Below are positions 9,778 to 17,032 of a stretch of DNA of 44,937 bases, piece after piece (positions within the stretch are counted from its first letter, which is position 1; every line of letters begins with the position of its first letter). Where the stretch lies: assembly GCF_024346455.1 (NCBI RefSeq), contig NZ_JAGQCY010000021.1, positions 1 to 44,937 on the forward strand. The letters are read 5' to 3'. Made by a program: the position numbers and the translations under genes. The DNA is from Cyanobium sp. Aljojuca 7A6. GTDB taxonomy: Bacteria > Cyanobacteriota > Cyanobacteriia > PCC-6307 > Cyanobiaceae. A model generated the notes under the pieces. It was not told the origin of the DNA. It worked only from the letters and a program-made list of their open reading frames with translations, and did no database searches.

Positions 9778-10596
9778 TCAGTTGCCTTGAATACGTTTCC
9801 TGAGCTTGCGGCTGTATCCGAAAGCTGCAGCAATACCGAGAACGGGCAGGGGTCCGGGGACGGCATCCCCAGGGCCTGTCACGGGGTTGTCCCCGGGGTC
9901 CGTAAGTCTCCCCCAGAGTTCGGCGGTGGTGGTCCCACCTTCTTGGGAAATCAAGGAATTCGTTGGATTCTTGTTGGAATCGAGGAAGAAGGAAGCCAGT
10001 GTTAGTTGTCGACCCTCAAAGGTGAACGTTTGGGCGGGAATAGTGCTGATGCTTATCTTGTCAGCGCAAGGGTTGCCGGGAGTGCTCGGGTAAGCGCAGG
10101 GTGTGGAATTGGGAGTTTCATCAATGCTGGTGGTATATATAAAATCAATACTTAGAGGGTTTGTGTTTTCAAATAATGTATCAATAGTTAATTGCGCAGA
10201 AGTCAGAGCCGTGCCAGCGCTAATAGGATTATTGAAATGCTGGAGTGTGCCAATCAGGAAGTCTGTTGTCCCTGGAAGGATTGTCAAATTTGGATTATAG
10301 TCTTCTCCCGTGAACCCCAAGCCACTCTTGGAGTTGACATTAGTAGGGGAACCCCAACGGATCTGGTTTTGGCCAGCAACTGTTTGATACTCGACAGTGT
10401 TAATTGCGGTAGTTGGGCCAACAGGGTTGCTCCAGGACCCAGTCGTTTTGTCAAGAACGACCTGAGCTTGCACTGGAGCTGGGGCAAGCCCAACGGCGAG
10501 GGCTGACCCGGCGGACACCGCCATGCAGGCGAGGACGCCAAAAGGGCTGGATGCCTTGCTCAGAGGAGATCTGAACCCGTTAAAAACTTTAGTCAT
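9778..10596 (-). CDS. PEP-CTERM-type secreted protein (choice-of-anchor K-like)
   Basis: A 272-residue exported protein. A signal peptide ends near residue 44 (APVQA). The mature part is beta-rich, with NQIRWGSP, SGLGFTG and LIGTLQHFNNPIS segments that I associate with the choice-of-anchor K and THxN-type ectodomains. The C-terminus is a sorting tail: a short VPGPLPVLG motif, a hydrophobic stretch, and a basic end (YSRKLRKRIQ), the tripartite form recognised by cyanobacterial exosortases. The tail should be cut and the protein glycosylated or released to the surface. No exosortase lies in the window. An array of three 11-bp units lies 47-80 bases upstream, and its own terminator follows. Confidence 0.78.
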   Translation of the reverse strand: MTKVFNGFRSPLSKASSPFGVLACMAVSAGSALAVGLAPAPVQAQVVLDKTTGSWSNPVGPTTAINTVEYQTVAGQNQIRWGSPTNVNSKSGLGFTGEDYNPNLTILPGTTDFLIGTLQHFNNPISAGTALTSAQLTIDTLFENTNPLSIDFIYTTSIDETPNSTPCAYPSTPGNPCADKISISTIPAQTFTFEGRQLTLASFFLDSNKNPTNSLISQEGGTTTAELWGRLTDPGDNPVTGPGDAVPGPLPVLGIAAAFGYSRKLRKRIQGN

Positions 10597-12035: not shown

Positions 12036-14213
12036 TTGCATTCCCTGGCCTTGATACCGTCCGCTCCAGCCTTCTTGGGTCGTCTCTGGCCCAGGCAAAT
12101 CGGCAACCAATGCCTGTTGATGATGGCCGCAGGCATCCTGTTTGGTCTGCTTGCGCCGGCCCAGACCCCCTGGCTGCAACCGCTGGCGACAGTCTTTTTG
12201 CAGGCCTCACAGATCGTGGTGATGCCATTTCTGATCTGCGAGCTGATCGTCGGGTTTGGGCGGCTGCGCGAAGGATCGCTCAGCGAGCTGGCGAGCAGGG
12301 GCGGGGTGGTGCTCCTGGGGCTCTGGCTGGCCGCCTCGCTGCTGGTGGTGGGGTTGCCCCTGTTTCTGCCGCCCCTGGTGACCTCCGAGTTCTTCCACGC
12401 CGGTCTGTTTGAAACCAGCGAGACCGCTGATCTGCTCACCACCTATCTGCCCGACAACATTTTTGGAGCCCTAGCGGCTGACAACTTTCCCGCGGTGGTG
12501 TTATTCAGTTGCCTGCTTGGAATCCTGTTGCAGGGGGTTGATCGCCGCGATGATCTGCTCAACCCCCTGGCGGTGATGCGCACGGTGTTCGGCAAGCTTA
12601 ATAAGCTTGTGGTCCGTCTGATCCCCTTCGGTATCTTTGCACTCATCGCACTCAATATATCCAGGTTAGATTTGCAGCAGCTGATCCGGATTCAGGGTTT
12701 CTTTCTCATCAGCCTGATCTCGTTCTTGGTATTGAGTTTCGGCTGTGCCATGGCGGTATTGGCCTTGACGCCCTTGAGCCCCTTGGTCCTCTGGCGGATC
12801 GTGCGGGGCCCCTTGGTCCTTACCGCCAGCAGTGCCAACCTGCTGATCTCGCTGCCGATGCTGGTGAACAACCTGCAGGAGCAGTTACCCGCCCAGCTGA
12901 ATCCGCCTGCCCGGTCGAATCTGGCCGCTGAAATGCGTGATGAGCTGGCACCGTTGGTTTCGCTTGGCTTTGCCCTGCCCAACCTGGGCCAGGTCGCGAG
13001 CTTGATCTTCATTCCTTTCTCCGCCTGGTATGTGGACCGGGCCCTGGAGCCCGCCACCACCGCCCGCATGTTGCTGAGCGCGATTCCAGCTTCGGTCTCG
13101 GGGCTCAAGGCGGTGATCCGGCAGGAATTGCTCCATCTCGGCCTGCCGATAGACCTGCTGCAGCTGGTGTACATCAATGGTGAATGGCTTTATCGGATCG
13201 AGAAGGTGCTCTCACTCGAGGGCCTGGTGGTACTGGCGGTGCTCGTTTATGCCCGGGGCGTAGGGGCTTGGAGACCGCGGCCGCTGCTGGTGCTGGCCAG
13301 TTTCAGTGCGGCCTTGGCCCTGGCCTTTGGCCTGGGCTTGGGCAGCCGGCTCAGCCTGGCGGCGGCCCTGCAGAATTCGTACCGAAATGACGACCGCCTG
13401 CTGGCTCTCACCACGGCGCGTAGCGGCGGTCAGCCCCAGGAGCTGCAGGGAGTACAGCCAGCCCAACGCGTCAGCTTGGAGGCGATCCGGGCCCGCGGTC
13501 TTTTGCGGGTGGGCTTGCGCCAGGACGGCCTGCCCTGGGCCTTTCGCAACCAGGACGGCACGATTGTGGGCTTTGACGTGGACCTGCTCAAAAGCCTGGC
13601 CTCCAACCTGGGCGTGCGACTACAGGTGCAGGTGGCACCGATGGCCCAACTGGAGCAATGGCTCGCGGATGAAAGGATTGATCTCGTAGCCGGTGGCATT
13701 CAGACCAGCCCACGCCACGCGATTCGCCACGAGCTCAGCCTCGGTAACCTACCGGTGCACTTGGCCCTGGTTGTGGCTGACGCAAAGGTCAAGGAACTGC
13801 AGCGCGGATTGGCAAACCCCCAGGAGCACACAGTGACCCTGGCCGTGCGTGATGCCGCCATGATCAGCCCCGGTCTGCAGGCCCAAATCGCAAAGTATCT
13901 CGGTGACGGTCATCAGCGCGCCAAGGTGGAGTTGATCCCAATCGAATCAAAGCAAGAATTCTTTTCAGCAGCAGGCCAAAAGAAGTTTGATGGTCTGCTC
14001 ACGACGGCTGAGTCGGGAGCAGCCTGGGCGGTGTTGTATCCCCGCACATCATTGATGACTCCCTTTAGCGATGATCTGAGCAGCGAATTGGTGCTCTTGA
14101 TCGGTGGTCAGGATGCCACCCTTCGCCGCTACCTTAACGGCTGGCTCTCCCGCGAAAGGGCCCAAGGCCGCATCGACGAGCTCTTCAACTATTGGATCTT
14201 GCTCAAGGATTGA
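12036..14213 (+). CDS. Dicarboxylate/amino-acid symporter fused to a solute-binding domain
   Basis: A 725-residue fusion. Residues about 20-420 form a DAACS/SDF (glutamate-dicarboxylate:cation symporter) membrane domain, with re-entrant-hairpin-like LTASSANLLISLPML and a later GFALPNLGQ segment. Residues about 475-725 form a family 3 extracellular solute-binding domain, starting LEAIRARGLLRVGLRQDGLPWAF and carrying the GFDVDLLKSLA signature. The binding domain would lie in the periplasm, tethered to the last helix, and could hand substrate to the carrier. The substrate is probably an amino acid or dicarboxylate. The start is a TTG with AGAGAGGAG 11 bases upstream; the ATG at 12026 is in a different frame. 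The closest alternative, ATG-ATG at about residue 29, would delete part of the first helix. Confidence 0.85.
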   Translation: MHSLALIPSAPAFLGRLWPRQIGNQCLLMMAAGILFGLLAPAQTPWLQPLATVFLQASQIVVMPFLICELIVGFGRLREGSLSELASRGGVVLLGLWLAASLLVVGLPLFLPPLVTSEFFHAGLFETSETADLLTTYLPDNIFGALAADNFPAVVLFSCLLGILLQGVDRRDDLLNPLAVMRTVFGKLNKLVVRLIPFGIFALIALNISRLDLQQLIRIQGFFLISLISFLVLSFGCAMAVLALTPLSPLVLWRIVRGPLVLTASSANLLISLPMLVNNLQEQLPAQLNPPARSNLAAEMRDELAPLVSLGFALPNLGQVASLIFIPFSAWYVDRALEPATTARMLLSAIPASVSGLKAVIRQELLHLGLPIDLLQLVYINGEWLYRIEKVLSLEGLVVLAVLVYARGVGAWRPRPLLVLASFSAALALAFGLGLGSRLSLAAALQNSYRNDDRLLALTTARSGGQPQELQGVQPAQRVSLEAIRARGLLRVGLRQDGLPWAFRNQDGTIVGFDVDLLKSLASNLGVRLQVQVAPMAQLEQWLADERIDLVAGGIQTSPRHAIRHELSLGNLPVHLALVVADAKVKELQRGLANPQEHTVTLAVRDAAMISPGLQAQIAKYLGDGHQRAKVELIPIESKQEFFSAAGQKKFDGLLTTAESGAAWAVLYPRTSLMTPFSDDLSSELVLLIGGQDATLRRYLNGWLSRERAQGRIDELFNYWILLKD

Positions 14214-14464
14214 AAGCCGAAGATCAACGCCAATAGGCCTTGATCGGCCCAGCGACAGCGGTGGCACAGCTCACGCCCCTGTGGTGTGCCTTGCCTATAC
14301 CATCCGCGCGCTGGAAGGGCTGTGCAAGCAGGTTACAAATCAGAACCGGGCCAAGAGACAGCCTGGGCAACAACCGTCGTGTTGATTCCAACGTTATAGG
14401 AATCGTTAATGACCTTGGTAATGAGCTGGGATCGACTATATCTAAACTATGTTTGTTGATCATC

Positions 14465-17032
14465 ATGCCACCACTACAGGCTAAGACCCACCGGTCACGA
14501 GCCATAAGGGCTTCCGCTTTGATGAGCGGCGTGGTACTGGCTGTGCTGGCGGCCAGTGGCGAGGGCTTGGCAAAGCCGATGACGCCCATCCCGCGGGTGG
14601 AAGCCACCGGAGGTCTGGTGTTCCAGAGCCAGGGCGGTGGCACCCCCAACACCGTCACGGCCTACCTCTTTGCGCCCCTGAGCCAGGGGGAGCGAGGCCA
14701 AGTGTTGTTTTTGGATGTGGCGGCAAACATGAACCTTGGCGGAGCGCTTGGGCCAGGTTCCGATGTTTCCGCTGGCTTCAGCACGCGCCTTGGCTATCGC
14801 TGGCTCAGTGGTGATCAACGCTGGATGTATGGTTTCAGCGCCGGTGTGGACACACGCCAGGCATTTAACGACTATGCCTTTCAGGCGGGCGTTGGAGCCG
14901 AGGCCCTTAGCCGCAACGTGGAATTGCGGTTCAACGGCTACATCCCCTTCTCCAACCAAGCCGATCAGTACCAGACCGGTTACAGCAATGCTTCGTTGCG
15001 CAACAACCAGTTGATCATCGATGGCTGGAATCGCTATGTGGTGTCGCTGGGTGGAGTGAATCTTGAGGCCGGCATCCCGGTGGCCCGCTGGAAGAAAGAC
15101 AGCCTCTGGCTCTACGCCTCCTATTACTACCTTAACGGCAACTATGTGAATGCCAGTTCAGGGGTCCGCGGGCGCGGTGAACTGCGCATCGGCAATCAAC
15201 TGGCCCTAGGCGCCACGATTTCCTACGACTCGATCTTCAAGACCCAGGCCACGGGGTATCTGCGCTATGGCGCCAAACCATTGGCGGGTAGCGCGACTGA
15301 CGCGGTGGATGCTGCCGAGCGCAACTTCTTGGCCTTGCGCGGGTTGCCGATGCAACGGGAGACATCCCTGCGCCTGGTTTCGGCACAGCAGGACTTGCCC
15401 GATAGCGTGGCCACCAATCCCGGCAATTTCGACGCGAGCTGGGTCGTGCGCTGCTCCGGCACTACCACCAACACCGGCACGGCTCAAGTGAGCTGCGTCA
15501 ATCCAAGTCTCGATGCGCTGCTGGCGGCCGCCGGGCCCGGAGATGTGCTGTTGGTGGGCGGTGGCGCCAGTTCCGACCTAGGCGGATGAACTCTGCGCCT
15601 CGCAGCGGGAACCAGCCTCACCGGCAGCGGCCATGCGCCCACCCTGACCACGCAATTCGGCCCTGTGAATCTTAATCCGGTGTTCGGTGCGAGGGTGGGG
15701 GCGCAGGCCTCCGTCGGTAACGGCATCATCAACATTGGCAGCAATACCACCATTGCAGGTTTGAGCTTCACCAACAGCTCAATTACTAATTACAGCACCA
15801 GCAATGTGCTGATCGCCGACAACACCTTTACAGGCTCCTACACCGACAGGCCGACAGACCTGGCAACGGCCCAGGCCTTTGGCGCCATCAACGTGTCAGC
15901 CAATGCGCTGCCAGCCATTCAACTGGACGGTGTTGACAACCTCGTGATCTCCAACAATACCTTCCTCTATCCACAGGTTCAGACCTACCAATCACAGCTG
16001 GGAACGCTTGGTGGCGTCGGTATGGCTCCAGTCTGCAATCAGAACGGAGCCAACACCAGTGGCCTTTGTCTCAGCGGTAACGCCATCCGGCTCAACAACA
16101 GCACGAATGCCGTCATCTCAGGAAATACGGTGATCGGTGCTCTCGATGAAGCCTTCCGAATCAACAATCCCTCAGGCACCTTGCTGATTGACAGAAATAC
16201 CATCTCCAACATGCGGATGGGCCCTGATAGCAACATCGGCACGGCCATCATCATTGGCCAGAATCGGGGCACCAGCACTGTGACCATCAGCAACAACTCG
16301 ATCAGTAACAACAGCCCTGGTGTTTATCCGATTGTCGCATCCCCCAATCAGAATGGTGTCGCCGTAGCCTCAGCCAGAGACCTGAAGCTCAATAACATTG
16401 ACCCGATTGAGATTGGCCTTTGCCGCGGAAGTGCCAACTACCCACGTGCTCAAGACCTGTATGCCGATCCGAACTTTTCGGGCAATTGCAGTGGACCCAC
16501 CACGATGAATGTCTCTGTCATCGGCAATACCATCGGCTTGCCTTCCATCTCCGGCGGCATCAAGCAAGACGCCGACGGAATCGACTTCAACATTGGTAGC
16601 AACAGTATCCTGCGTGCCAATGTCTCCGGAAACACTATTTTGACCCTCGGCGGCAGCAGGGGTGGAGACAATGGCATTACCTTCGACATCCGCGGCAAAG
16701 CCGATGCCAGGGTCACCATCGCCGACAACAAGATTAATGATGTTAGTGACGAGGCTATCGACCTCGGCTTCACTAACACGGTCAGCAACAATCAGCCTGG
16801 ATTTGCTGAATTCACCCTGTCGGGCAACGGCTTCAGTGGCAGCACAGACGGCCTGCTCAATATCGACCTGATCAACAACCCCGGCATCCCAGTCTCCAGC
16901 TTCTTCGTCACGGGCCAAGGCAACAACGCCAGCCAGGTGGGGGCTGTCAAGCCTCGCTCCTTCAGCTTCAACACCGGCAGCTTCCCCAAGCTTTATCTCA
17001 ATGGCTCGCTTTTCCTCCAACCTTCGCCATGA
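14465..17032 (+). pseudogene. Inverse-autotransporter/beta-helix surface protein split by an in-frame TGA
   Basis: One 856-codon frame interrupted at codon 375 (15587-15589) by TGA; the reading resumes in the same frame and protein character is continuous across it (...SSDLGG, stop, TLRLAAGTSLTGSG...). Residues 1-37 form a signal peptide. Residues about 40-290 resemble the intimin/invasin-type inverse-autotransporter barrel (AGFSTRLGYRWLSGDQRWMYG, FNGYIPFSNQ). From about 350 to the end are Asn-rich right-handed beta-helix repeats (VISGNTVIG, LVISNNTF). Without readthrough the product would be a barrel and short stub lacking the surface passenger. The stop is one base change from GGA, CGA or TGG. 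No frameshift or other damage was seen, so the lesion looks recent, or is a sequencing error. A GTG or ATG restart after the stop would lack a signal peptide. Confidence 0.75.

Follow-up and report, generated by a model that had tools for sequence, protein, structure and literature searches.

What a secondary carrier of the SDF/DAACS type does with a solute-binding protein (SBP) domain on its own chain is the question raised by a gene at 12036-14213 (+) of the window, by which we mean the whole stretch of DNA analyzed, the 44,937-nt contig NZ_JAGQCY010000021.1 of Cyanobium sp. Aljojuca 7A6 (assembly GCF_024346455.1, forward strand). The gene is one uninterrupted open frame (TTG start, stop codon included) for a protein of 725 aa, with an SDF carrier at the N-terminus and an SBP_bac_3 domain at the C-terminus. 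Pfam SDF (PF00375) matches residues 25-284 (4.6e-32, 111.9 bits, cut-off 27.9), covering only profile positions 4-270 of 387, and SBP_bac_3 (PF00497) matches residues 490-721 (3.6e-15, 56.3 bits, cut-off 26.4); with both matches above their cut-offs, the architecture described in the initial annotation, an SDF carrier continuing into a family 3 solute-binding domain in one chain, is borne out. No other Pfam family was detected in the protein at E values up to 0.1, and no subunit or SBP kind of the TRAP or TTT transporters. The first residues conserved in the alignment of relatives lie at about 16-20, so the true start may sit slightly 3' of 12036. The gene is the sole SDF match in its source genome (G000). 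The neighboring genes give no clear pointer to the substrate. Downstream in the window, 14240-17032 (+) encodes a protein with an inverse-autotransporter beta-domain match and another with a right-handed beta-helix; the two may belong to a single surface protein. On the other side of the gene, 9778-10596 (-) encodes an exported-looking protein without a Pfam match, the C-terminus of which we take to resemble a PEP-CTERM-type tail. At loci L040, L041, L043, L044, L046, and L047, upstream frames less than 4 kb from the fused gene resemble, by eye, an amino-acid ABC permease and ATPase.

Fusions of this kind recur. Among 22 loci in genome contigs, 18 carry intact, full-length fusions (56-94% identity), the frame is broken in three (L048, L049, and L052), and a contig end truncates the last (L053); an alignment of 20 fused proteins has a mean column identity of 70%. 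In the other genomes of the genus a strong match was found in 11 of 36, one of these being partial. All 22 locus records are titled cyanobacteria except one MAG labelled Bifidobacterium breve (L045, CALPNT020000019.1), which encodes a cyanobacterial fusion, so that a wrong label or contamination of the record is probable. A profile search of the class recovered five more distant fused proteins of the marine picocyanobacterial type, with frames of 746-760 residues and 24-28% identity, and tblastn searches of plasmids recovered a fused relative on the Halioglobus pacificus plasmid pRR3-57 (26.6% identity over 98% of the query) and a plasmid-borne one in Pseudoalteromonas xiamenensis, WP_308362721.1, annotated as a "cation:dicarboxylase symporter family transporter". 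Phyla beyond the cyanobacteria were sampled through plasmids only, and 2 of the 42 matching plasmid records cover at least 80% of the query. Both Pfam families exceed their cut-offs in all four distant relatives scanned from the marine-type and gammaproteobacterial set. Because these relatives, WP_308362721.1 included, keep the whole architecture, the fusion was already in the databases under a generic name, a possibility the initial annotation had allowed for. Its concern that a sequencing error might have joined two genes is refuted, as the order SDF then SBP_bac_3 is found across genomes: although the broken frames in three relatives could be quoted in favor of an error, or of a recent chance fusion of unrelated genes, the 18 intact loci and the distant full-length relatives make either explanation extremely improbable. 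It should be noted that the frame break in L049 lies near the domain join and that in L048 inside the SBP; the breaks in L048, L049, and L052 are assembly errors or true pseudogenes.

Purifying selection acts on both domains, replacement change being far below synonymous change: five pairs gave dN/dS values of 0.075-0.118 in the carrier part and 0.103-0.206 in the binding domain, the sixth pair being saturated in each case. The carrier is the more strongly conserved half, with 87 of 260 residues invariant in its Pfam-matched part versus 58 of 245 in the SBP.

The carrier part (residues 18-410, TM1-TM8; 12087..13265, (+)) is of the SLC1/DAACS fold, as judged by Pfam and by the predicted structure. 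The models were built on 19 sequences. The AF2 model of the full protein has a mean pLDDT of 72, with low confidence at residues 112-147 and in some stretches of the SBP, and its pattern of helices is in keeping with the SLC1 fold. The best structural match of the carrier model is 9bgy (Z 35.8, 353 residues, rmsd 2.8), an ancestral sodium-uncoupled aspartate transporter, and the GltPh chains among the matches listed score Z 28.8-30.2; a profile alignment to stand-alone SDFs (hhalign) spans residues 18-404. For the ligand sites we followed the roles that the available portion of PMC12668577 gives to GltPh N310, M311, D312, T314, D394, R397, N401, and D405, together with its coupling signatures, in which Na+ coupling goes with N310, M311, D312, and D405 and the H+ signature has L311 and N405. 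In the profile alignment N310, M311, D312, and T314 become P315, N316, L317, and Q319 of the window protein, within the TM7 motif PNLGQV (residues 315-320; 12978..12995, (+)) that replaces NMDGT, and D394, R397, N401, and D405 become Y386, E389, S393, and L397, within the TM8 motif YRIEKVLSLEGL (residues 386-397; 13191..13226, (+)), which structural and profile alignment place at GltPh D394-D405. The TM8 register is consistent between methods, as the last residues aligned to 9bgy agree with the profile alignment. R387, invariant in an 18-row cyanobacterial alignment, was considered as the counterpart of R397 and rejected, since hhalign places E389 there, the end of TM8 in the 9bgy match agrees, and in this register the Halioglobus protein keeps both D394 and R397. 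The HP1 tip (residues 263-274, TASSANLLISLP; 12822..12857, (+)) was located by alignment to GltP, and its N268 is invariant in a 20-row alignment; HP2 (about residues 349-368; 13080..13139, (+)), located by alignment and comparison with other SDFs, is shortened and has no GxxG tip motif.

We scored seven ligand positions, leaving out M311. None of the seven is kept in 26 of the 27 fused proteins and three are kept in Halioglobus (T314, D394, and R397), N310, D312, and D405 being retained in 0/27; among 41 stand-alone SDFs (all cyanobacterial except three from E. coli), 5-7 are kept by 35 sequences and 1-3 by six, these six being four sequences of the divergent group described below, E. coli TcyP, and one frame cut by a contig end. 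The stretch between TM7 and TM8 has 67-68 residues in the fused proteins versus 74-77 in each of the 69 other SDFs in the comparison; a GxxG-like HP2 tip motif is present in 0/27 fused, 25/25 classical, and 38/44 divergent or two-gene sequences. The replacement residues are constant in 20 freshwater proteins at the positions of N310, T314, D394, R397, T398, and D405, and we rejected decay of the carrier half because the new ligand-site residues are mostly constant in this way and dN/dS is low.

The chain of GltPh ends in the cytoplasm, after TM8, and with such an end a C-terminal SBP would face the wrong side of the membrane unless another helix were added. A candidate for this ninth helix lies at residues 416-445 (13281..13370, (+)), where the model has a helix and from where the chain is predicted to return to the periplasm. 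A hydrophobic segment between TM8 and the SBP is found in all 27 fused proteins (mean Kyte-Doolittle 1.25-2.45), and an extra hydrophobic tail segment in 0/69 non-fused SDFs; lysines and arginines before the segment outnumber those after it in 24 of the 27, with a tie in three. Given the hydrophobic segment in every fused protein, the charge bias, and the modelled helix, we predict that the ninth helix places the binding domain in the periplasm.

The binding domain itself (residues 479-723; 13470..14204, (+)) matches SBP_bac_3 in Pfam, and its domain-only model (mean pLDDT 76.7) has the two-lobe SBP fold, matching 5t0w with Z 18.6 over 218 residues (rmsd 3.7), 6svf with Z 18.3, and the tryptophan-bound 9e2b with Z 18.1; the matches are amino-acid SBPs and dehydratase descendants. 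In amino-acid SBPs an arginine binds the carboxylate of the ligand and usually an aspartate binds the amine. The arginine position holds Arg in 18 of 20 freshwater fused proteins, and His in the window protein (His561) and in L032, and none of the 12 fused rows compared has the aspartate, Glu (nine) or Gln (three) standing two positions on; both residues are kept in 33/33 SBPs of the two-gene pairs. From these comparisons we predict an amino acid or a related compound as the probable ligand, but His561 and the missing aspartate mean that binding of the usual amino-acid type is not assured in the fused SBPs.

Whether carriers of this type have binding proteins elsewhere was addressed in two censuses. 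SDF was found in 58 of 400 genomes of the window's family, and among the 64 matches listed 38 (in 36 genomes) lie in fusion-sized frames of 718-868 residues, a class assigned by length, 18 in stand-alone frames of 425-474 residues, and eight in partial or odd ones. In all 17 of the 18 stand-alone loci that were fetched, an SBP-type gene lies directly upstream on the same strand, its open frame overlapping that of the SDF or lying at most 27 nt away. Across the class, SDF was found in 99 of 242 genomes, and the matches listed split into 77 of at least 291 bits and 30 of 203-279 bits. We took 29 of the lower-scoring 30 as the divergent set (L144-L172; the thirtieth lies in L120) and 20 loci with 22 SDF genes from the upper 77 as the classical control. 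An SBP gene lies directly upstream on the same strand of 24/29 divergent SDF genes versus 0/20 classical loci (Fisher p 1.9e-9, all five misses counted), and the classical control thus rules out chance adjacency. In the divergent pairs 30-360 nt separate the SBP stop from the beginning of the downstream SDF domain, and SBP_bac_3 exceeds its cut-off in 9/9 paired neighbors scanned. Two of the five misses are at contig ends (L156 and L168), and the other three (L160, L162, and L164) belong to one genus and have an unlinked SBP elsewhere in the genome, 47-50% identical to the paired ones and falling inside the paired SBP clade; two of these three genomes hold no other SBP_bac_3 match. In genome G043 an SBP gene is flanked by two divergent SDF genes, and a third SDF has an SBP upstream. 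One Priestia plasmid locus examined, carrying a stand-alone SDF, has no annotated SBP alongside. The one weak SBP match in the classical control, on the strand opposite to the SDF, is L181:4308-6878 (-), an 857-residue frame with DUF1400 and alpha/beta-hydrolase matches and a C-terminal SBP_bac_3, an odd fusion of hydrolase and binding protein; L166:1452-2894 (+) is a paired SBP that also bears a PG_binding_1 (peptidoglycan-binding) domain.

The statement in the initial annotation that this class of carrier normally needs no SBP therefore fails for a large cyanobacterial SDF branch, in the divergent set and in the window's family alike; of that interpretation as a whole, the architecture stood, whereas the symporter label (see below) and the view of SDF carriers as a class without SBPs did not. 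In a set of 85 rows, classical SDFs keep 5-7 ligands in 24 of 25 cases (TcyP keeps three) and SDFs with an SBP gene keep 1-3 in 38 of 39 (L172 keeps five). Since the lower group was chosen by score, its loss of ligands follows in part from the selection, but the SBP neighbor does not. The HP2 motif is present in 34 of 39 two-gene carriers and lost in the fused ones, so the fused and two-gene forms may differ somewhat in how they work. SBP and carrier are genetically linked here, as operon and as fusion, which is the mark of SBP-dependent secondary transporters, and the two-gene relatives lend support, at the level of sequence, to the view that carrier and binding protein work together.

The SDF tree contains a classical clade (support 87), a clade of two-gene or divergent carriers (99, flagged), and a fused clade (100, flagged) with both gammaproteobacterial proteins inside; the SBP tree contains a clade of paired plus unlinked SBPs (99, flagged), one of fused domains (97, flagged), and one of nine other cyanobacterial SBPs (85). 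Both are quick searches in which long branches were flagged. The matching clades indicate that carriers and binding proteins split in parallel; a putative origin of fused and two-gene pairs from one SBP-partnered ancestor is neither shown nor excluded by these trees. Fused and two-gene forms coexist in one genome, as G368 carries a fused gene (C222) and a separate SBP and SDF gene pair (C237, L126). G460 encodes two fused proteins (L140 and L141; 751 and 722 residues), one of which clusters in the SDF tree with the two plasmid proteins of the gammaproteobacteria, a placement that may hint at transfer between phyla.

From these comparisons we consider it fairly probable that the window protein is a one-chain, binding protein-dependent importer on the SLC1/DAACS elevator fold. 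The periplasmic C-terminal SBP_bac_3 domain, standing on the ninth helix, would capture a small molecule, probably an amino acid or a related compound, and hand it to the elevator, this solute then passing through the SDF part, where the carrier's own high-affinity aspartate and sodium (or proton) sites would have been rebuilt. Given that rebuilding, we propose that selection moved from the carrier to the binding protein. Power might come from a different ion site or from uncoupled flow drawn by metabolism; an uncoupled cycle is conceivable, since neither the known sodium signature nor the known proton one is present and an SDF carrier without coupling is described (PMC12668577, available portion). 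Transport, the need for the SBP, the substrate, and the energy coupling are what we infer for the fused protein. Several observations count against the one-chain importer: His561 and the missing aspartate in the binding domain, replacement residues at the ligand sites that vary among freshwater, marine, and gammaproteobacterial fusions, the separate clades of fused and two-gene carriers, and the HP2 motif that two-gene carriers mostly keep and fused ones have lost. With somewhat less confidence, though still on the favorable side of even, we suggest a further class of SBP-dependent secondary transporters on the GltPh/EAAT elevator fold, in which an adjacent or fused SBP_bac_3 protein would select the solute and the carrier's sites would be dismantled; of the seven known ligands, classical carriers keep 5-7, two-gene carriers mostly 1-3, and fused ones none.

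A classical Na+- or H+-coupled amino-acid/dicarboxylate symporter, with the binding domain as an accessory that raises affinity or gates, would agree with the SDF match and fold, with the three of seven ligand residues in Halioglobus, and with the database name of the Pseudoalteromonas protein. We hold it unlikely, as 26/27 fused proteins keep 0/7 of the ion- or substrate-coordinating residues of GltPh versus 5-7 in 35/41 stand-alone carriers, and the GxxG tip of HP2 is missing in 27/27; the term "symporter" used in the initial annotation finds no support in such sites, and "sodium symporter" is probably the wrong label for the fused protein. The loss of every known transport ligand, together with purifying selection on the binding domain, would suit a receptor or sensor, in which the carrier fold has become the membrane anchor and signal relay of the binding domain. 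This too seems unlikely, and to a similar degree: the chain has no cytoplasmic output domain in Pfam, the carrier is the more strongly conserved half, and the two-gene relatives resemble transport operons.

SLC1 carriers are known to conduct anions, and binding to the SBP could open a path for water or anions along the elevator fold, as in SBP-gated channels of the iGluR type. Apart from that conductance, such a ligand-gated pore would be in line with the missing ion and substrate sites, the shortened HP2, and the Lig_chan-Glu_bd matches seen in 4/9 paired SBPs scanned; these matches, however, fall short of the cut-off and reflect only the fold common to SBPs, and Pfam shows no channel domain, so we rate the pore as quite improbable. 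The binding protein-dependent importer is the explanation we favor.

Its closest precedent is TAXI-GltS, in which coupling of an SBP and a carrier was proposed from adjacent genes and fusions, and glutamate binding by the SBP was measured, for Bordetella BP0403 with GltS (PMC12344293, in the portion available). As here, an elevator-type secondary carrier and an SBP are encoded by adjacent genes in some bacteria and fused in others; unlike here, the carrier is GltS (ESS family) and the TAXI SBP is N-terminal in the fusion, whereas the window protein has an SDF/DAACS carrier with SBP_bac_3 C-terminal on an added ninth helix. Our reading of the window protein as an SBP-dependent carrier rests on one branch having an operon and another a fusion, the type of evidence used in the available portion of that work. 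The TRAP and TTT transporters share the principle that a binding protein feeds a secondary carrier (PMC12344293, same portion) and differ in their membrane and SBP families. Classical SDF/DAACS carriers (GltPh, GltP, and DctA; SLC1 family) share the Pfam family and the fold of the membrane part with the window protein, in which seven ligand positions are replaced, the HP2 tip motif is absent, and a ninth helix is added. AncInt and its clade (PDB 9bgy, 9bgz, and 9bh0) provide the best structural match and a precedent for an SDF without sodium coupling, but AncInt keeps the substrate- and ion-site residues that the fused proteins are without and binds aspartate, and no SBP partner is found for it in the available portion of PMC12668577. 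The cyanobacterial two-gene pairs of an SBP and a divergent SDF resemble the fusion in carrier Pfam family, in their SBP_bac_3 partner, and in having largely lost the known ligands; they differ in their separate genes, the lack of a ninth helix, an HP2 motif that is mostly kept, and a clade of their own in both trees. The main text of PMC12344293, as available, makes no mention of DAACS, SLC1, GltPh, or SBP_bac_3, and no report of an SDF carrier having an SBP fused to it or encoded next to it was found in a literature search in which subscription journals were thinly covered, an earlier description thus being possible.

Before that work (2025), TRAP and TT transporters were the only secondary transporters known to use a soluble SBP, and finding more classes that depend on an SBP would test whether it is the elevator mechanism that permits such a partner (PMC12344293, available portion). 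The present results are a caution against naming such proteins sodium:dicarboxylate symporters. An SBP-partnered branch within the SLC1/DAACS fold, if true, would make the elevator question testable in a family with a very rich structural record, and would be a natural experiment on what happens to a carrier's substrate and ion sites when selection falls to a binding protein.
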